Shown here piece after piece: positions 8,237 through 26,944 of a DNA stretch of 64,000 bases. Source of the DNA: Betaproteobacteria bacterium (GTDB lineage Bacteria > Pseudomonadota > Gammaproteobacteria > Burkholderiales > Ga0077523); NCBI GenBank assembly GCA_016125475.1, contig WGLR01000023.1:124001-188000 (forward strand), read 5' to 3'. Position numbers and translations under genes: made by a program. The notes beneath the pieces are model-generated. The model ran no database searches. It was not told the origin of the DNA and was given only the letters and a program-made list of their open reading frames with translations. Position 1 is the first letter of the stretch, and every line of letters starts with the position of its first letter.

Positions 8237-9235
8237 ATGTTTCCGAAACTCGTCGCGGTGATCGTGCTCGCGGTTGCCGCATTCAGCTTTCCACCGACGC
8301 ACGGCTTCGCTGTGCCGCTGTTCATACTCGGTGCGGTGATCGTGTTCATCGTCGAGGGTGTTCGCGTCGTTCCGCAGCAGACTGCGTGGGTGGTCGAACG
8401 CCTCGGCCGGTTCCACAAGATCCTCGAACCGGGCCTCAACATCATCGTGCCGTTCGTCGACCGGGTGCAGTACAGGCACTCGCTCAAGGAAGTTCCGCTA
8501 GACGTTCCGGAGCAGGTCTGCATCACCAAGGACAACACGCAGCTCGGCGTGGACGGGCTGCTCTACTTCCAGGTGACCGATCCGCGACTCGCGAGCTACG
8601 GTGCATCCGACTTCGTGCTCGCGATCACGCAGCTCGCCCAGACCACGCTGCGCAGCGAGATCGGGAAGATGGAGCTGGACCGCACGTTCGAGAGTCGCGA
8701 GGAGATCAACCGCCAGATCGTCGCCGTGCTCGACGAAGCCGGACGAACCTGGGGCGTGAAGGTGCTGCGCTACGAGATCAAGAACCTGACGCCGCCGGAG
8801 TCGATCCTGCGTGCGATGCAGGCGCAGATCACGGCGGAGCGCGAGAAGCGCGCGCTGATCGCGAAGTCCGAAGGACAGCGACAGGAGGAGATCAACCTCG
8901 CCGAGGGCGAGCGCCAGTCCAAGATCCTCGCATCCGAAGGCGAGAAGACGGCCGCGATCAACAAGGCGCAGGGCGAGGCGACGGCGATCCGGATGCTCGC
9001 GGACGCCCAGGCGGAAGCGGTGCGTGCGGTCGCGGCCGCGCTTGCATCGGACGGGGGCATGAATGCGGCGAACCTCAAGGTCGCGCAGGAGTACGTCGCC
9101 GCGTTCGGCGCGATCGCGAAGGCAGGCAACACGCTGATCGTCCCTGCGAGTCTCTCCGATCCCGCGGGGCTCGTGGCAAGTGCGATGACGGTACTGACCC
9201 GGGCAAGTGGAGCGCCCTCGAGCCCCCCTGGCTGA
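8237..9235 (+). CDS. SPFH/stomatin-like (paraslipin) membrane protein
   Basis: Membrane-anchored SPFH protein of 332 residues. One N-terminal transmembrane region (about 1-40) is followed by the SPFH domain (VVPQQTAWVVERLGRFHKIL..., about 45-220) and an Ala/Glu-rich coiled coil (about 190-260) typical of oligomerising stomatins. It probably forms ring assemblies that organise membrane proteins together with NfeD. GGAGGAGG (8222-8229) is 7 bp before ATG 8237, so I prefer this to ATG 8195, which overlaps the nfeD stop. It resembles E. coli QmcA and bacterial slipins. Confidence 0.9.
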   Translation: MFPKLVAVIVLAVAAFSFPPTHGFAVPLFILGAVIVFIVEGVRVVPQQTAWVVERLGRFHKILEPGLNIIVPFVDRVQYRHSLKEVPLDVPEQVCITKDNTQLGVDGLLYFQVTDPRLASYGASDFVLAITQLAQTTLRSEIGKMELDRTFESREEINRQIVAVLDEAGRTWGVKVLRYEIKNLTPPESILRAMQAQITAEREKRALIAKSEGQRQEEINLAEGERQSKILASEGEKTAAINKAQGEATAIRMLADAQAEAVRAVAAALASDGGMNAANLKVAQEYVAAFGAIAKAGNTLIVPASLSDPAGLVASAMTVLTRASGAPSSPPG

Positions 9236-9284
9236 GTGCACCCGAGCTTCACGGGAGGCTTTTCGTCCCGTTCGAGGGCGACGT

Positions 9285-9305
9285 GCCCCTCCAGCCGGGA
9301 GGGGC
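9285..9305 (+). terminator. hairpin after the stomatin gene
   Basis: GCCCCTCC and GGAGGGGC form a perfect 8-bp stem with a 5-nt loop, 50 bp past the stop. There is no T-tract, so intrinsic termination is possible but unproven. Confidence 0.35.
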
Positions 9306-9480
9306 GTCGTTCGGTCCCGCCGACGTCGGTCAGGGTCTGGACCGCGCCGCCCAATGCATTAAACTCCCGCGTCGCCCGAAACCCGGGGAGTCGGTCTCCC
9401 GGGGCCGTCCGGCCAGGGCTCGACATTTTTCGATGCAGATGGGAACTGACTGCCGGCCCGGGTCGGCGGGGGGAGTTTTG

Positions 9481-10557
9481 TTGACGGTTTTGCAGCAACT
9501 GATGACGATTGTCCGGTTCGCGGCGTGCACGACTCGCCTGGCCCGTGGACCCGTTGCCCTGCTGTTCCTCGCAGGCGTCTGGGCATCCCCTGCGATCGCC
9601 CAGGACGAGGCCGGGAACAGGGCGATTCCGGAACTCGACGTCGAGTACGTGATCGGGCATCCGCACCCGCGCGTGGCCGAGATCGGCTACAAGCAGCCGG
9701 AGGTGTTCGATCCGTTCACCGACAAGCTCTACCAGAGCGGCTTCCGCTACGGCGGGCCGTCGGTCGAGATTCCCCAGGAAGCGCGATACCTGAGCGCGAT
9801 AGGCCGCACGAAGATGCTGAAACGCATCCTCGCGTGCGCCGATGCCTGGTACTACCCGTTCTCGCACACTGCCCCGAAATCCGAGCCGCCCGGCATCGAC
9901 ATCGAGATCCTGAGCCGCATCGCGCAGAGGCACGGGTGGCAATTCTCGATCCTCTGGGCCAACACCGGTGTCTATCGGGGCGGCGTCAACCTGGCCTTCA
10001 AGCAGACCATCAACCGCGGGTTCTGCGACGTGTTCCTGGGGCTCGCGATCACCGGTGTCGACGACCACATGACCCGCAACGACATGGCGTTCACGACCCC
10101 GTACCTCGGCGTCGGCTTCGTGCTCGTGAGTCAGGGCAAGGTGCCCAAGGTGCGGACGCTCGCGGAACTCAAGGGCCAGGGATTCAAGATCGGGGTGCCG
10201 GCCTACTCGCCGATGTACGACAACGCCGTCGAACTCGGCATCCCGGTCGAAACGTACTTCCAGAATCACCGCGTGATCGACGGCCTGCTGCGTCACGAGG
10301 TCGACGCCGTCATGGTCTGGGGACCCTCCATCACGGTGGCGAATCACGACAAGAACGTCGAACTCCACATGTCCGAAGGCTTTCAGCCGATGCCCGGCCA
10401 GCGATTCAACATGGCCTGGGCGGTGAAGGCGAAGGAGACGGAGTTCAAGAAGATGCTCGACGACTCCATCAACGAGATGCTCGCGGACGGGGAGATCCGC
10501 GAGATCGTCGAGCGCTACGACGTGCCGTACTTCGCGCCGTTTCCCGAGGGCCGGTAA
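9481..10557 (+). CDS. periplasmic solute-binding protein, SBP_bac_3-like
   Basis: Exported protein of about 350 residues resembling the solute-binding proteins of polar amino-acid ABC transporters and the MxaJ/XoxJ-like proteins beside quinoprotein dehydrogenases. It has a signal peptide ending PAIAQ, an unusual N-terminal extension of about 80 residues, then a bilobal domain starting at RILACADAWYYPFS with the hinge regions GFCDVFLGLAITG and FKIGVPAYSP. No ABC permease or ATPase gene is adjacent. Instead ExbB, ExbD and TonB genes follow in the same direction. I chose TTG 9481 because GGGGGAG lies about 5 bp upstream; ATG 9502 is the conservative alternative. The ligand is unknown. Confidence 0.75.
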   Translation: MTVLQQLMTIVRFAACTTRLARGPVALLFLAGVWASPAIAQDEAGNRAIPELDVEYVIGHPHPRVAEIGYKQPEVFDPFTDKLYQSGFRYGGPSVEIPQEARYLSAIGRTKMLKRILACADAWYYPFSHTAPKSEPPGIDIEILSRIAQRHGWQFSILWANTGVYRGGVNLAFKQTINRGFCDVFLGLAITGVDDHMTRNDMAFTTPYLGVGFVLVSQGKVPKVRTLAELKGQGFKIGVPAYSPMYDNAVELGIPVETYFQNHRVIDGLLRHEVDAVMVWGPSITVANHDKNVELHMSEGFQPMPGQRFNMAWAVKAKETEFKKMLDDSINEMLADGEIREIVERYDVPYFAPFPEGR

Positions 10558-20397: not shown

Positions 20398-20850
20398 TCA
20401 CTGCCTGGCGGCGCCGCACATCTGCAGCGGAATCCGCGCCTGTTGCAGCCACTTCGTCTGCATGTCGCCGGAAAAGTCCACGCTGTAGTCCGCGCGGGAT
20501 TCATTGATCCCGGTGTCGTATATCTCGTAGCGGATGTGATGGGCCGTGTGCGAGGAGCCCTTGGTCCCGTCCTCCTCCGGCGTCAGCGTCACGGTGAGGA
20601 TCTGCTTGATCCGGGAGGCCGCCGCGACCTGGGACTGCGCGTAGCTTCCTTCCCTCTTCGCAACGACCCCGAAGGTCCTGCGAATCGCGTCCTCCACGCA
20701 CGGCACCGAACCGAGCATCGTCCCGGGCAGTGTCGCCGAGCGCTGATCCAGCGTCTCGCGCACGTCCCGCGCCGTGCTCGCACAGCCGCCCAGCAGCACG
20801 AGCGCGAGGAGTGCGACCAGGATGCCGCGAGTGTGTGGTGTGTGCATCAT
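20398..20850 (-). CDS. putative lipoprotein, unknown function
   Basis: 150-residue protein with a lipoprotein signal peptide (lipobox LLGGC, Cys at about 22) and a mature part that resembles no family I know. Two further Cys residues (SVPCVED and the penultimate QMCGAAR) could form a disulphide. Its ATG (20850) overlaps the stop of the UxaA-like gene by 4 bp (ATGA), so it should be made with that cytoplasmic enzyme, an odd pairing. Confidence 0.7.
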   Translation of the reverse strand: MMHTPHTRGILVALLALVLLGGCASTARDVRETLDQRSATLPGTMLGSVPCVEDAIRRTFGVVAKREGSYAQSQVAAASRIKQILTVTLTPEEDGTKGSSHTAHHIRYEIYDTGINESRADYSVDFSGDMQTKWLQQARIPLQMCGAARQ

Positions 20851-22043
20851 GCGGCGGTCGGAAAACATGCGGGCCCCAGTGGTTCGAAGGTCTTGTAGGT
20901 CAGGATGAACTCCTGGTGGCCGAGCGCTTCCGATCTGGTCGGCTCGCCCTCCGCAACGCGGAGGATCAGGTCGTATATTTCGCGCCCGACGTCGTCGAGC
21001 GTCGCCCGGCCTTCGAGAATCCGCCCGGCATCGACGTCCATGTCGTCACGCATGCGCTGGTACGTGTCCGGGTTCGCGCAGACCTTGATGACCGGCGAGA
21101 GCGCGGAACCGACCACCGATCCGCGGCCGGTCGAGAACAGTATCAGGTGACTGCCGCACGCGATGAGCTCGGCGATCTCCGCGTTGTCGTTGATGTTCGG
21201 GAAGCCGAAGCGCGGCTCGCCATCGGGCACGACGTCGAGCAGATAGAGTCCGCCGCCGGCCGGCGTGTCGCCGGGCTTGATGATTCCCGAGATGACCGAC
21301 TGGCCCGACTTCGCGTAGGCCCCGAGCGACTTCTCCTCGATGGTCGTGAGACCGCCGTCGGCATTGCCCGGCCCGATGCTCGCGTGACCGTAGGCATCGT
21401 AGTACCTGGCAGCCTTGGCGACGGTCCTGACGATCTCTTCCCCGAGCGCGGGGTGCTGGGCTCGCTTCGCCATCCAGTGTTCCATGCCGATCAGCTCGCC
21501 GGTCTCCTCGAAGATGCACGTCGCATTCTGCTCGACGAGGAAGTCGAACGCGCGACCCATGGCCGGATTCGCCGTGAGACCGCTCGTGGCGTCGGATCCG
21601 CCGCAGATCGTGCCCACGACCAGTTCGTCGACGGCCATGTCCACGCGAGGCGCGGCCCGCAGCGCGTCGAGGGTCCGCGCGACCCACGCGCGGCCCGCAT
21701 CCACGGAGCGTCGGGTCCCGCCCGTTTCCTGGATCACGATCAGCTCGGCCGGGCGTCCCGAGGCCCTGACCGTTTCCAGCAGTGCGGTGCGGTTGAAGCA
21801 CTCGCATCCGAGCGAAACGAGCAGGACAGCCCCCACGTTCGGGTGCGTGCAGAGGCGCTCCATCATCTTCTGTGAGTAGCCATTGGGAAAGCAGCCCGGA
21901 AAGCCGATGAGGTGCGCGCCCGTCTCGCGGTGCGGATGCACGATCTCGCGCGCCACGTGGTGTGCACACTCGACGAGGTACGCGACCGCGACGAGATTGC
22001 GTATGCCCTTCCGGCCGTCCTGGCGCAGGTAGCCCTGGATCAT
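20847..22043 (-). CDS. UxaA-type dehydratase/sulfo-lyase large subunit
   Basis: 398-residue C-terminal part of a UxaA family enzyme (altronate dehydratase, galactarate dehydratase, or sulfolactate sulfo-lyase SuyB type). Family features seen: GYLRQDGRKGIRNLV at the start, GCECFNR, VGTICGGSDATSGLTANPA, and the metal-ligand region HASIGPGNADGG. It would remove water (or sulfite) from a sugar acid-like substrate in the cytoplasm. It overlaps the upstream SAF-domain gene by 4 bp. The neighbouring enolase-superfamily and CitE-like genes suggest sugar-acid catabolism (inference). Confidence 0.86.
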   Translation of the reverse strand: MIQGYLRQDGRKGIRNLVAVAYLVECAHHVAREIVHPHRETGAHLIGFPGCFPNGYSQKMMERLCTHPNVGAVLLVSLGCECFNRTALLETVRASGRPAELIVIQETGGTRRSVDAGRAWVARTLDALRAAPRVDMAVDELVVGTICGGSDATSGLTANPAMGRAFDFLVEQNATCIFEETGELIGMEHWMAKRAQHPALGEEIVRTVAKAARYYDAYGHASIGPGNADGGLTTIEEKSLGAYAKSGQSVISGIIKPGDTPAGGGLYLLDVVPDGEPRFGFPNINDNAEIAELIACGSHLILFSTGRGSVVGSALSPVIKVCANPDTYQRMRDDMDVDAGRILEGRATLDDVGREIYDLILRVAEGEPTRSEALGHQEFILTYKTFEPLGPACFPTAA

Positions 22044-22375
22044 TGCGTCCGATTCTCCTCGAGGTACTGGTGCCCCGCGTCGAGCGTGTAGGTCGGGATG
22101 TAGTCGCTCGTCACATTGTGTATGTGCATGTTCTCGCCCGGAGCGATCGCCACGAGCGCACGACCGATGGGGGCGCCGTACTTCACGATCTTCTCGTCCT
22201 TGCTCACAGGCTTGAACGCGAACTTGTGGCCGGTCGGGATCGCCCTGGCCAACGTGACGGCGTGTCCCATCACGGTCAGCGATTCGCCGGCCCGAAGGTC
22301 GCGCTTCGCGATCGCGACGTTGTCGTCCGGCGCAAGGACCAGAACCCGCGGATCCGTTTCGGCATCGTCAGTCAT
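22040..22375 (-). CDS. UxaA-type SAF-domain small subunit
   Basis: 111-residue N-terminal module of the split UxaA-type enzyme. It carries the SAF fold with the motifs IPTGHKFAF and GENMHIHN. In single-chain altronate dehydratase this domain is fused to the large part; here it is a separate gene overlapping the large subunit by ATGA, as in SuyA/SuyB. The start is ATG 22375; GTG 22378 is also possible. Confidence 0.82.
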   Translation of the reverse strand: MTDDAETDPRVLVLAPDDNVAIAKRDLRAGESLTVMGHAVTLARAIPTGHKFAFKPVSKDEKIVKYGAPIGRALVAIAPGENMHIHNVTSDYIPTYTLDAGHQYLEENRTQ

Positions 22376-22381
22376 CACGGT

Positions 22382-23599
22382 TCACTTCCCCACTCTCGTC
22401 ACGCGAACGGTTGCATCCTTGCGCCGGATGACATCAGGGCGCAGGCGTGTCCCGAGGCCCGGCCCCGGCGGTGCCGAGATGAAGCCGTCCTTGACAGGAG
22501 GCAGCTCCGTGACGAGCGTGGGATACCAGTCGTAGTAGAACGCCCGGACCATCTCCTGCACCAGCGCATTCGGCGAGTTCAGTGACAGATGAACGGAAGC
22601 GGTGAGCAGGATCGGTCCCGTGCAGTCGTGGGGCGCCAGCGGCAGGGCCCAGGCTTCGGCCATCGTCGCGATCTTCCTGGATTCCGAGAGGCCCCCGCAC
22701 CAGCCGACGTCCAGCATGCACACGGACACCGCCTGCTTCTGGAAGAGATCACGGAAGCCCGCGCGGGTCGCGAGCGTCTCGCTGGCCGTGACCCAGACGT
22801 TGGTCCGGTGAGCGTAGTCCGACAGCGCGTCCAGATTGCTCATCTTGATCGGGTCCTCGTACCAGAACGGGTCGAACTGCTCGAGGGCCCCCGCAATGCG
22901 GATCGCGGCCGGCAGCTGCCACATGGAGTGGAACTCGACGTGGATGTCCATGCGGTCCCCGACCGCCTTGCGGATCTTCTCGAAGGGCCGCATGGCCTTC
23001 CGGAGATCGGCGTTGGAGATGTAGGTTCCGTTGGAAGCTTCGGCGGCCTCGTCGAACGGCCAGATCTTCATGCCCGTGATGCCCATGTCGAGCAGGCTTT
23101 CCGCGAGTTCTCCCGCATCGGTGAGAAACCCCTTGAGGTCCTCGTAGGGCCGCTTCTTCTTGTCCACCTTCGCGGGAAGACCGAAGTTCTCCGTACCCTG
23201 GGTCGGCTTGGAGCGCACGTACTGATAGCCGGCACAAGTGTTGTAGACGCGGATTCTGTCCCGCGAGGCGCCTCCGAGGAGCTGGTAGATCGGCTGTCCG
23301 GTGACCTGGCCGAAGAGGTCCCAGAGCGCGATGTCGATCGCGGATGCCGCGCGCATCTCGACGCCCACGCTGTTGAAGCCGAGGTAGGTGTTCAGGAAGT
23401 GATGGGAGATCCGGTCGATCTCGAGCGGGTTTCTGCCCAGAAGCCACGGTGCGCACGTCTCGTGGATGTGGGCTGCGACCGGGTTCACCGCGTAGAACGT
23501 CTCGCCGAGCCCGACGAGGCCTTCGTCGGTATGGATCTGGACCCAGAGCAGGTTCGGAAATTCCGCGAGCTGGATGGTCTCGACGGCCGTGATCTTCAT
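22382..23599 (-). CDS. mandelate racemase/muconate-lactonizing (enolase superfamily) enzyme
   Basis: 405-residue enolase-superfamily enzyme with the N-terminal capping domain (1-120) and a TIM barrel. Metal-ligand strands appear as DIHVEFH, FWYEDPI and VTASETL, and the catalytic segment GMKIWPFDEA lies on an earlier strand. A His in PLAPHDC fits the mandelate racemase subgroup. It would dehydrate or cycloisomerise a sugar acid; family members include galactarolactone cycloisomerase and acid-sugar dehydratases. It is upstream of the split UxaA genes (6-bp gap) in one operon. ATG 23599 follows AAAGGG. Confidence 0.86.
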   Translation of the reverse strand: MKITAVETIQLAEFPNLLWVQIHTDEGLVGLGETFYAVNPVAAHIHETCAPWLLGRNPLEIDRISHHFLNTYLGFNSVGVEMRAASAIDIALWDLFGQVTGQPIYQLLGGASRDRIRVYNTCAGYQYVRSKPTQGTENFGLPAKVDKKKRPYEDLKGFLTDAGELAESLLDMGITGMKIWPFDEAAEASNGTYISNADLRKAMRPFEKIRKAVGDRMDIHVEFHSMWQLPAAIRIAGALEQFDPFWYEDPIKMSNLDALSDYAHRTNVWVTASETLATRAGFRDLFQKQAVSVCMLDVGWCGGLSESRKIATMAEAWALPLAPHDCTGPILLTASVHLSLNSPNALVQEMVRAFYYDWYPTLVTELPPVKDGFISAPPGPGLGTRLRPDVIRRKDATVRVTRVGK

Positions 23600-23760
23600 G
23601 TGTGTTCGCCCTTTCATCGGAGTCGCGAAGTGTACCGTCAAACCCGGACGTCGCCGGAGTGTCGGCAAATCACGACACCCGGTCCCCGTCGTCCACGGTG
23701 ACACGTCCGGTCCGGCGGATATTGGTACGATCGACGCTTTGCAGAGGAAGGGGAATCTCG

Positions 23761-24630
23761 ATGAAGCCGTCGGCCGATACGCACGTGCGTCCGCGACGCA
23801 GCCTGCTGTTCGTTCCCGCGTTGAGACCGGATCGTTTTGCCAAGGCGCTCGAGTCCGGCGCGGACATCGTGTGCATCGACATGGAGGACGCGGTCGCCCA
23901 GGATCGCAAGGACGAGGGCCGTGCGGCGACGCTGCCGCTGTTCGCGACGCCGTCGCATCCGGAGGTCGAACAGATGGTCCGGATCAATGCGCTGTCGACG
24001 TACCACGGGCTCAAGGATCTGCAGGCTCTCATCGACTGTGCGGCGCCTCCGCCTGCGATCATGATTCCGAAGGTGCGGTCGGCCGAAGAGGTGCAGCTGC
24101 TCGACACGCTCCTGTCGGGTGGTTCCGCGCGGTCCATCCGCTTCTGCGTGATCGTCGAGACCAATCAGGCTCTCGAACGTGCAGTCGACATTGCCCGGGC
24201 GAGCCCGCGCATCGACTCGATGATCCTCGGTGCGGTGGACATGTCGGCCGACCTGCGCTGCACGAAGGCCTGGGAACCGCTCCTGTATGCGCGTTCGCGA
24301 CTCGTGCACGCGGCGGCGTCGGCCGGCATCGATCTCCTGGACGTGCCCTATCTCAATCTCGACGACCCGGAAGGTCTGCGTGAGGAGGCGGTGCGGTGTT
24401 TGCGGCTCGGCTTCACGGGCAAGGCGTCGATCCATCCTTCCCAGCTCGCGGCCATCCACGAGGCGTTCACGCCCAGCCGGGAACAGCTGGAGAAGGCGCG
24501 GCGCGTGTGTGCCGCCTTCGAAGAGAACACGAGTGGCCTCGTCGTCGTCGACAACGAACTAATCGAGCTGCCGGTGGTCCGTTCCTATTACCGGATGCTC
24601 GCGATCGCCGAGCGCATCGCGAGCCGCTGA
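23761..24630 (+). CDS. HpcH/HpaI aldolase / CitE-like CoA ester lyase
   Basis: 289-residue TIM-barrel enzyme of the citrate-lyase beta / malyl-CoA lyase family. Recognisable parts are SLLFVPALRPDRFAKAL, CIDMEDAV (metal Glu/Asp), MIPKVRSAEEV and VIVETNQA. It could cleave (3S)-citramalyl-CoA, malyl-CoA or a similar beta-hydroxyacyl-CoA. GAGGAAGGGG precedes ATG 23761. It is divergent from the enolase-superfamily gene, so a shared 160-bp promoter region may coordinate them. Confidence 0.86.
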   Translation: MKPSADTHVRPRRSLLFVPALRPDRFAKALESGADIVCIDMEDAVAQDRKDEGRAATLPLFATPSHPEVEQMVRINALSTYHGLKDLQALIDCAAPPPAIMIPKVRSAEEVQLLDTLLSGGSARSIRFCVIVETNQALERAVDIARASPRIDSMILGAVDMSADLRCTKAWEPLLYARSRLVHAAASAGIDLLDVPYLNLDDPEGLREEAVRCLRLGFTGKASIHPSQLAAIHEAFTPSREQLEKARRVCAAFEENTSGLVVVDNELIELPVVRSYYRMLAIAERIASR

Positions 24631-24680: not shown

Positions 24681-25496
24681 TCAGCTCGTCGCGACCACCG
24701 TCCGGGTGTCGTCGCGGAGAGACACGTGGGCCTTCGACTCGCTGTCGAACTCGGCCAGGGTGGCTGCTGTACGCCCCATATACGTCGCAAGTTCCCCGTC
24801 GAGTTTCTCGATGTCGAGACGCAACAGAATTGCGGGCGCCTTCACGCGCCCGCATTCCCGTACGTCGGACGCCACCGTGAAGCCGAAGAGTTTTCTGTAA
24901 ACAGGGGCATGCCGCGGATTCACCTCGATGTAGAGATCGGTCGCGCCTCTTTCCACACGACCGATCTTGTACGCGAGCGCGAACATCGAGGACAGCACGC
25001 GGCGACTGTCGCTGTTCGGCGCCACTGCCAGTCGGGTGAGCTCACAGAGGGTGCGGCCGTTCTCACGCGCAGCCGAAATGACGTCCGGATACGTGTGGTC
25101 GATGCAGAGTCCCGTCGGTCCGTCGAAGGTGAGGGTCATCGTGCCGATGACGTGGCCCAGTTCGAATGTCACGAGCGTGACGAACGCGCGTGTGCCTGTC
25201 TCCGGTTCGACGTCGATCGAACCCGTCTCGTAGCCGCGCCATTCGTAGCGCTGTCTCACCAGTTCCGTTGCTGCCACGAGTTGTTCGCGTGTCGTCGCGA
25301 CTTCCGCACGAACGGCCGCAGGACTTGAAACTGCGTGATCGTCGAGTCGGGCGCGGGCGTGTGTCGTCCTGTCGGGGATCCCCCTGGCGTCGGAACTGCG
25401 CGCGCGAAAGACCTGCTCGAAGAACGATGCTTCCCAGACTCCGGGCGCATTGGAACGTTGGGCTACTGCATTCGTGAACATCGAAGAAGTCATCAT
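24681..25496 (-). CDS. FeeM-like N-acyl amino acid synthase
   Basis: 271-residue GNAT-fold acyltransferase resembling FeeM, which makes long-chain N-acyl amino acids from acyl-ACP, and distantly LuxI. The core (about 95-245) shows the diagnostic order: RQRYEWRGYE, VIGTMTLTFDGPTGL, NGRTLCELTRLAV, SSMFALAYKIGR and LYIEVNPRHAPVYRKLFGF. The N-terminal about 60 residues are low-complexity and the last about 30 are charged. ATG 25496 has GAGGGT upstream. Some related proteins are linked to PEP-CTERM/exosortase systems, and one PEP-CTERM protein is in this window. Product and amino acid are unknown. Confidence 0.8.
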   Translation of the reverse strand: MMTSSMFTNAVAQRSNAPGVWEASFFEQVFRARSSDARGIPDRTTHARARLDDHAVSSPAAVRAEVATTREQLVAATELVRQRYEWRGYETGSIDVEPETGTRAFVTLVTFELGHVIGTMTLTFDGPTGLCIDHTYPDVISAARENGRTLCELTRLAVAPNSDSRRVLSSMFALAYKIGRVERGATDLYIEVNPRHAPVYRKLFGFTVASDVRECGRVKAPAILLRLDIEKLDGELATYMGRTAATLAEFDSESKAHVSLRDDTRTVVATS

Positions 25497-26329
25497 GACT
25501 CGTACCCTCTTCCAGAAGTTTTCGGCTGTGCCGCCACCTACGCACGCATCACGCCAGCATGTACACGAGTCGGCCGGCGCGTCACTGATAGCACGCGTTG
25601 ATGGCATTGGAATAACAGCGTCTCCATTGCTCCACCTCTTGTTCTGTTCACCGATGGGGCGACGGTCCAGGCGTACGGACGGGGCCGGTGCGTCGGGGCG
25701 TCGCAGATCGACAGGTGGATCGAAGAAGATGGTTGTCTTATCGAGGAACCCGTCGCCCACCGACTAGCGGGCATCGGGCTGTGGTGACGTGGTGCTCGTT
25801 CACGAAGAGGTGTCGGCCCGGTGAGGCAGGCCATGGGTCCCTCGCGCGTCACACTCCCGTCACGGGGACCATGCATCCGCTCGCAGACTGTACAAGATTC
25901 GAGTTGCCGCGGCATCTCGTTCTTGCGTATCCGCGCCTTGATTCCACGCCTTCTCCGGAAGCCACGCATTGACCGCGCGCAAGGCCTGCAACCGGGCGCC
26001 CGGGATCGCCGGCGTTTGTGTCGGATTTCTTGACGCCGACTCGTTGCGGGACGACCGTCGCAAACGTCGGCGCGCAAGTGTCGGCGCTGTTTACGCCTGC
26101 AGTCCGTTGTTGCCGTTCGTCACGGGCAAGTGCTTGACTGGACGAATGTTCGGGCAATGGGCCCGCTTCCTGCGAAATGATTCGACGTGAGACGTTCGAG
26201 GTACGAGGTCGTACCGGGTGACGCCTCCATGTCCCGCGAGGCGCGGATGAACCGGCCTGTCCCGATCAGGCCGCGGACGTGTCGAGCGATTTGGTACCGA
26301 GCAACCTCTTTTCGAGAAGACTCTTCGCC
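25497..26329. other. 833-bp non-coding divergent region
   Basis: Lies between the divergent FeeM-like and HD-domain genes. No open frame has a good ribosome site. A perfect 16-bp dyad is described separately. The length is unusual in a window where most gaps are under 150 bp, so promoters or an RNA may be present. Confidence 0.4.
26200..26215. promoter_or_regulatory. perfect dyad GGTACGA-GG-TCGTACC
   Basis: A 7-bp inverted repeat with a 2-bp centre, 115 bp before the HD-domain gene. This is a typical size for a dimeric repressor or activator site. No candidate protein is adjacent. Confidence 0.4.
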
Positions 26330-26944
26330 ATGCTGCAGAGAATTGCCGTGGAGCCCGGGCATCGGGGCCCAACAGTCGCCCTCACGACCACCAAGCGGGT
26401 TGTGCCGTTTCGACAGCAGCCGTGCGCACTCCTGATCGAGGCATTGTCGGTCGCGGCCGAAAGGCGGCGCGACCCACGCCGTCGCAGGCGGGAACTCTCG
26501 GGAGGGCTGGAGCACGCGATCTCGCTCGTGCACGTCCTGTGCAACGAGGCCGGCATCACGGATGACGTCACACTCGCCGCCGCGGTCCTGCACGATACGC
26601 TCGTCGAGACGCAGGCGACCTACATGGAAATGCGACGACAGTTCGGTCCGGTCGTGGCCGAGGTCGTCGCCGAACTCGCCGACGACGTCGACGGACCCGT
26701 GAAGGACCGTCCGGCACTCCGTCTCCAGGGGGGTGGCTCGCTGAGCCATCGCTCGAAACTGATCCGGCTCGCGCAGCAGGTCGTCTCCGTCAGGGAACTC
26801 GCGCCGGACGCGGAGCAGCCCCACAGGCATCGGTTGCCGGCTTCGTTCGATGCCATTCGATCGATCGTCGAGAATCTCCGCGGCACGCACGCCACGCTCG
26901 AATACCTCTTCGACGAGGAGTGCACGCGCTTCCAGGCTGCATAG
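26330..26944 (+). CDS. small HD-domain protein, SpoT-hydrolase-like
   Basis: 204-residue protein whose core (about 58-160) aligns with the HD hydrolase domain of RelA/SpoT and MESH1 proteins, which cleave (p)ppGpp using Mn. His62, His88 and Asp89 are present (LEHAIS, AVLHDTLVET). However, the fourth ligand, Asp in the motif LAD(R/K), is Gln149 here (LIRLAQQVV). The protein may therefore be inactive or altered. No synthetase domain is present. ATG 26330 has GAGAAGA upstream; a GTG at 26279 would add 17 residues. Confidence 0.72.
   Translation: MLQRIAVEPGHRGPTVALTTTKRVVPFRQQPCALLIEALSVAAERRRDPRRRRRELSGGLEHAISLVHVLCNEAGITDDVTLAAAVLHDTLVETQATYMEMRRQFGPVVAEVVAELADDVDGPVKDRPALRLQGGGSLSHRSKLIRLAQQVVSVRELAPDAEQPHRHRLPASFDAIRSIVENLRGTHATLEYLFDEECTRFQAA

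Follow-up and report, generated by a model that had tools for sequence, protein, structure and literature searches.

A FeeM-family N-acyl amino acid synthase gene of a Betaproteobacteria bacterium lies divergent to a degenerate MESH1-like gene with a predicted PrsR/sigma-54 element

We analyzed a 64-kb stretch of DNA from a Betaproteobacteria bacterium (referred to here as the window) and found a gene, feeM, whose product belongs to the FeeM family of N-acyl amino acid synthases. Based on sequence comparisons and a structural model, the enzyme probably makes an envelope lipid, and the long noncoding stretch next to its gene is probably a PrsR/sigma-54 control region facing a divergent neighbor (the HD gene) that encodes a degenerate MESH1-like protein. 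The enzyme itself is of a known kind; what is new is the arrangement around feeM and its pseudo-hydrolase partner. The less ordinary features are the pairing of feeM with an alarmone hydrolase that is degenerate throughout the genus and lies behind a PrsR-type promoter, and a link between one FeeM clade and Lol-like genes, which is undescribed in the literature that we searched.

To our knowledge, N-acyl amino acids had previously been connected with the PEP-CTERM/exosortase system through gene proximity alone. This connection is credited to Craig 2011 as its founding paper. A synthase gene that sits beside a regulon promoter and a degenerate hydrolase makes three things directly testable: where the lipid goes, how it is controlled, and what the pseudo-hydrolase does. 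The features discussed below are listed in Table 1.

Table 1. Features of the feeM-HD region and of related genes elsewhere in the genome (G000)
Feature	Position	Strand	Basis or remark
FeeM-family N-acyl amino acid synthase (feeM)	24681..25496	-	271 aa; profile, PDB sequence match, model, fold
E152 codon, counterpart of FeeM Glu95 and Nas354 Glu103	25041..25043	-	Alignment with 2g0b
Conserved block spanning the feeM start	25492..25557	-	74% over 66 nt versus G002; includes a possible ribosome-binding site
Short block shared with G002	25591..25618	-	Possible feeM promoter of unrecognized type
GACTGTACAAGATTC / GACTGTACAAGAWTC box	25886..25900	.	Candidate feeM control site
Second, weaker PrsR motif-1-like site, TGTCGGATTTCTTGACG	26019..26035	+	Motif scoring
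PrsR motif 1 (PEP-CTERM-box enhancer), TGTCGGCGCTGTTTACG	26079..26095	+	Definition in PMC1569441; congener alignment, pattern search
Sigma-54 -24/-12 site, TGGGCCCGCTTCCTGC, GG-N10-GC	26158..26173	+	64 nt after motif 1
58-nt identity block over the HD gene start	26316..26373	+	Window versus G002
MESH1-like homologue of small alarmone hydrolases, active site degenerate (HD gene)	26330..26944	+	MESH1 match, residue columns
Lol-like module, PepA-like gene, and prsK-prsR on contig C4	L196 10556-17847 and L197 9453-12937		G000

The feeM gene and its product

The feeM open reading frame was intact, began with ATG, and had exactly the boundaries given in a preliminary description of this DNA. The start codon was supported by a comparison with the ortholog in genome G002 (Betaproteobacteria bacterium Ga0077526, contig LNDV01000014.1), because similarity between the two began at the ATG and the DNA alignment contained gaps of 1, 9, and 6 bases directly upstream. 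The motif order that the preliminary description had claimed for FeeM-type acyltransferases was recovered in full, with WRGYE at residues 86 to 90, CELTRLAV at residues 151 to 158, and IEVNPRHAPVYRKLFGF at residues 190 to 206.

The accompanying proposal that the protein is a FeeM-type N-acyl amino acid synthase was backed by a profile search, the catalytic residue, and the fold. Specifically, the Pfam FeeM profile PF21926 matched the protein with 145 bits (E = 2e-42; cutoff, 27) and was covered from position 1 to position 158 of 158. One outcome that the preliminary description had named as counting against it was a plain GNAT family scoring higher than FeeM. This did not occur: in that search, the plain GNAT profile PF00583 reached 15 bits, which is under its cutoff. 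The sole relative in the PDB by sequence was FeeM 2g0b (E = 8e-9). As for the active site, E152 lies within CELTRLAV and was invariant across 45 sequences. The corresponding Glu95 of FeeM is the proposed catalytic Glu, and its counterpart in Nas354 has been mutated (PMC4897644).

An AlphaFold2 model of the protein had a mean pLDDT of 77.6. Most values in the GNAT/LuxI-like domain (approximately residues 59 to 243) were above 90, and the N- and C-terminal tails were both of low confidence. The closest fold was that of FeeM 2g0b (Z score, 21.3; rmsd, 2.4; 177 residues), followed by the next GNAT (Z score, 15.8) and LasI (Z score, 14.6), and BjaI matched structurally as well. A plain GNAT identity is very unlikely on both the profile scores and the fold scores. 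Identity as a LuxI-type AHL synthase is likewise very unlikely, despite the common GNAT fold, because the AHL synthase profile PF00765 (Autoind_synth) had no match to the protein at E ≤ 1 and LasI ranked well below FeeM.

The preliminary description had further related the protein to exosortase-associated acyltransferases. A distant relationship held up, but family membership did not, as TIGR03694 had no match to the protein at E ≤ 1; the cutoff of this profile is 111.95 bits, and its true members in related loci scored 246 to 250 bits. The TIGR03694 acyltransferases are GNAT/LuxI-like relatives that occur in the same type of locus in related bacteria (L116 and L131), and they form a separate family. 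The tie of the window FeeM to the PEP-CTERM/exosortase system is genomic and is not one of family membership.

Taken as a whole, the product of feeM belongs to a known family, FeeM, within which it is divergent but otherwise unremarkable. It shares its domain, fold, and catalytic Glu with FeeM 2g0b, NasY, and Nas354. Its identity with FeeM across the fold was approximately 26%, and it differed from FeeM, NasY, and Nas354 in having an N-terminal extension of approximately 58 residues with one predicted helix and no PilZ domain. Family members can be encoded singly, as reported for Nas343 and Nas354, whose genes are not part of a pathway operon. The feeM gene lies outside a biosynthetic cluster.

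When 11 other congeneric genomes were searched, an ortholog of feeM was found in G002 only, where it occupied the same slot (citE, feeM on the minus strand, and the HD gene on the plus strand). In four other congeners that were inspected, citE adjoined the HD gene directly, without feeM. The feeM-HD pairing is known from two genomes only. Occupation of the slot in just 2 of 12 congeneric genomes would suit a stray gene, one that was moved or is decaying, that has no functional tie to its neighbors, and that came to be divergent by chance when it inserted between citE and the HD gene, and the neighboring citE and sugar-acid dehydratase genes are unrelated to lipids. We consider this explanation unlikely, however, since feeM is intact, has kept its catalytic residues, and showed purifying selection relative to the G002 ortholog (dN, 0.41; dS, 1.41, which is close to saturation), and since the slot was retained in two species whose FeeM proteins are 55% identical. 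The sugar-acid catabolism genes at positions 20847 to 24630 (encoding a galactarate-dehydratase-like protein, an enolase-superfamily dehydratase, and a CitE/RipC-like lyase) were syntenic with the HD gene in congeners.

The intergenic region and the divergent HD gene

The gap between feeM and the ATG of the HD gene was 833 bp (positions 25497 to 26329) and was among the two longest uncalled gaps of the window when a crude gene caller was used. The longest uncalled stretch found with this caller was 1.28 kb (positions 9236 to 10514). The preliminary description had presented the gap as an unusually long noncoding promoter side of feeM and had called it silent. It is indeed long and noncoding, but the recognizable promoter in it, of the PrsR/sigma-54 type, belongs to the divergent gene, and silent is the wrong functional description because a conserved regulatory element that faces the HD gene was found inside.

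A search for a hidden gene in the gap yielded no encoded peptide that was conserved in any locus compared. A coding reading was rejected because the strongest of the weak tblastn matches to G002 covered one stretch in two frames, and the match was therefore one of DNA similarity, not protein similarity. No Rfam family, tRNA, or sigma-70 promoter was found in the gap, and RNA structure upstream of feeM and at the HD gene start was no more stable than in shuffled sequences. The palindrome CGAGTTGCCGCGGCATCTCG at positions 25900 to 25919 was set aside, since it lacked conservation in G002. An alignment of the gap with the corresponding stretches of G002, G005, and G006 revealed a common block facing the HD gene.

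Haft 2006 described a 17-nt motif (motif 1) that ends in TTTACA, is sometimes repeated, and lies upstream of proteobacterial PEP-CTERM genes. A spacer of 62.8 ± 10.6 nt separates it from a sigma-54 -24/-12 motif further downstream, and motif 1 was assigned to the response regulator PrsR (PMC1569441). The gap has the same composition as this PrsK-PrsR-RpoN regulon, namely, a 17-nt motif 1 ending in TTTACG/A, a spacer of approximately 63 nt, and a -24/-12 site. In addition, genes for PrsR (715 bits) and PrsK (784 bits), both scoring above their cutoffs, are present on contig C4 of the window's genome, and a single exosortase (229 bits) is encoded on contig C11. The element in the window differs from the published regulon in that it faces a non-PEP-CTERM (MESH1-like) gene on another contig and that its sigma-54 site lies 156 nt from the ATG, compared to a reported mean of 71. 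The sigma-54 site is also weak, with a score of -5.3 compared to 16 to 26 for genus-wide training sites, but the GG-N10-GC core and the spacing are kept.

The composite pattern occurred at 14 sites in 8 of the 12 genomes of the genus, compared to 0 to 1 hits per genome for a control pattern. Four of these sites precede the HD gene, and most of the others precede PEP-CTERM or secreted-protein genes. When the pattern was relaxed (TGT for TGTC), the element was found upstream of the HD gene in seven of the eight congeners that have this gene, at positions -243 to -251 from the ATG and with an identical spacer. It was found upstream of none of seven distant HD homologues. These comparisons provide good support for a predicted PrsR/sigma-54 regulatory element upstream of the HD gene, and the main explanation for the 833-bp stretch is a known regulon that would act on that gene. 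In the mechanism that we propose, the stretch would serve as a divergent control region, and the PrsR boxes and sigma-54 site would drive the HD gene.

Because enhancer-binding proteins act at a distance, the same PrsR enhancer boxes might act on both divergent genes, in which case feeM and the HD gene would be switched along with the PEP-CTERM proteins. The divergent layout is kept in two species, PEP-CTERM genes in the same genome use this regulon, and relatives of feeM adjoin PEP-CTERM genes. However, no sigma-54 site facing feeM was found in the gap, and the feeM side has no recognized promoter. Furthermore, the element is independent of feeM and did not arise to serve it, because congeners that lack feeM in the slot also carry it in front of the HD gene. 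Switching of feeM itself by PrsR is possible, but joint control of the two genes strikes us as doubtful. On the feeM side, the exact GACTGTACAAGAWTC box was present only in the two feeM-HD intergenic regions when 12 congeneric genomes were searched.

The HD protein showed nearly full-length similarity to fly and human MESH1 (E ~ 1e-22). The MESH1 type is recognized by its residues for metal binding and catalysis (H, HD, ED, and the LADK Asp), and by this measure the HD protein falls outside it. In columns aligned with human MESH1, the Glu of ED in the HDxxED motif was replaced by V, A, Q, G, or F in eight of eight congeners (L031 to L038), and the Asp of LADK was replaced by Q, E, S, or V in the same eight. 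The first or second His of the HD site was additionally lost in some congeners. In contrast, H, HD, ED, and the LADK Asp were all intact in six of six outgroup homologues from other families. We take the lost residues to be the catalytic Glu and metal-ligand Asp of MESH1 and other small alarmone hydrolases. Since catalytic and metal-binding residues are lost, the HD protein probably binds its ligand but does not cleave it, and it is probably inactive as a hydrolase.

The start of the HD gene was unusually similar in the window and G002. The 14 nt upstream of the ATG and the first 14 codons were identical, including the synonymous sites, whereas identity was approximately 72% over the rest of the gene and approximately 73% over the aligned gene in full, with 57% of synonymous sites differing. 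RNA folding was rejected as the cause of this 58-nt identity, as no stable fold was found.

Related loci, export genes, and the likely product

Clade assignment was based on a tree of 104 FeeM domains. The FeeM proteins of the window and G002 fell into a nine-member clade (clade A; support, 100/100), and the other seven members were from uncultured betaproteobacteria or other proteobacteria. Lol-like components were located within 6 kb of FeeM in all seven of the other clade-A loci, compared to 4 of 72 other FeeM loci (Fisher P = 1e-7, with kinship left in; clade members are not independent samples). The term Lol-like was chosen because the LolC/E and LolD scores in FeeM loci were under the curated cutoffs for true Lol proteins. 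The Lol-like export module, which was present in every other clade-A locus inspected, gives these synthases a testable partner.

Locus L116 illustrates the layout. It contains two LolC/E-like permeases, a PEP-CTERM protein, a clade-A FeeM, a DUF1302 barrel, a LolD-like ATPase, a LolA-like protein (PF17131), a second FeeM, and a TIGR03694 acyltransferase. A second FeeM was present in five of the other seven clade-A loci and was the sister of a paralogue on contig C11 of the window's genome. In loci L116, L122, L131, and L138 (as well as L105, L106, and L160), FeeM genes, mostly as two paralogues, were located within a few kilobases of genes for Lol-like export, a DUF1302 barrel, and PEP-CTERM/TIGR03694 proteins, and such loci are candidates for both making and exporting N-acyl amino acids. 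In the literature that we searched, no published link between N-acyl amino acid synthases and Lol-like systems or between PEP-CTERM and MESH1 was found, although one may exist.

In the window's genome, the corresponding parts were dispersed. The C11 paralogue was part of an XrtA-type exopolysaccharide locus and shared its contig with the exosortase gene. On contig C4, a Lol-like module adjoined a PepA-like PEP-CTERM gene that has a PrsR site of its own, and prsR was within approximately 20 kb of the module. No gene for a FeeM, TIGR03694, or cluster-type ThiF protein was found beside the C4 module or prsK-prsR.

Enzymes of this family join an acyl donor and an amino acid to form an N-acyl amino acid (PMC4897644, PMC10404671). 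In the case of the window FeeM, the family, fold, and catalytic residue were computed, and we infer the reaction and the substrates. The enzyme would take a long-chain acyl group, presumably from acyl-ACP, and, with E152 as the general base, would transfer it onto an amino acid at the alpha-amino group. The resulting N-acyl amino acid would be an envelope lipid that a Lol-like system may pass to the outer membrane. This reading was adopted because the other clade-A members sit in PEP-CTERM/Lol-like loci; use of a Lol-like system by the window FeeM is suggested by these relatives, and the module is on another contig here. The preliminary description had envisaged a signal or an envelope lipid; the latter fits the Lol-like/PEP-CTERM context of the relatives, and nothing was found that supports a signal.

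The product might instead be modified further. In the characterized tyz cluster, a FeeM gene lies beside genes for ThiF and a nitroreductase (PMC10404671), and the first step of the Oxz/Tyz pathways (OxzAB and TyzABC) is carried out by a FeeM-like acyltransferase, as the window enzyme is. Many Burkholderiales FeeM genes adjoin ThiF and nitroreductase genes, and one clade-A locus, L131, has both nearby. The window FeeM product could, by analogy, be cyclized and desaturated to an acyl-oxazolone by a ThiF protein and a nitroreductase encoded elsewhere. We consider this highly improbable, as neither gene was found beside feeM within the window and no cluster-type ThiF was found in the genome, where the best ThiF match was generic (44 bits, compared to 399 to 648 bits in six congeners with an oxazolone cluster). 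Like the window's genome, G002 was without a cluster-type ThiF.

Because the window's genome had neither a TIGR03694 protein above the cutoff nor a cluster-type ThiF, FeeM-type enzymes are the best candidates for an exosortase-linked N-acyl amino acid synthase here, and a plain N-acyl amino acid is likelier than an oxazolone. As predicted from sequence, the likely product is an envelope N-acyl amino acid without further modification. The divergent pair would then set one gene of the PEP-CTERM regulon, whose product may bind a ligand without hydrolyzing it, beside one lipid enzyme.

In a broader scheme, which we regard as quite speculative and improbable, a PrsKR/sigma-54 program would couple an alarmone-binding pseudo-hydrolase to N-acyl amino acid lipids that are exported alongside PEP-CTERM proteins. 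Export to the outer membrane would be carried out by a dedicated Lol-like ABC system composed of LolC/E-like, LolD-like, and LolA-like proteins and a DUF1302 barrel. If true, this scheme would represent a new pathway for exporting aminolipids and would tie surface remodeling to nutrient state in a new manner.

Two further matches to the FeeM model in the window's genome were rejected as FeeM proteins. The match on contig C45 was closest to OlsB-type ornithine acyltransferases, and the match on contig C9 (L064, positions 9150 to 10412) was a 420-aa fusion of a GNAT-like protein and a CRP-like domain. This domain is of the cyclic-nucleotide-binding type, and the gene lies downstream of a dnaB-like gene.
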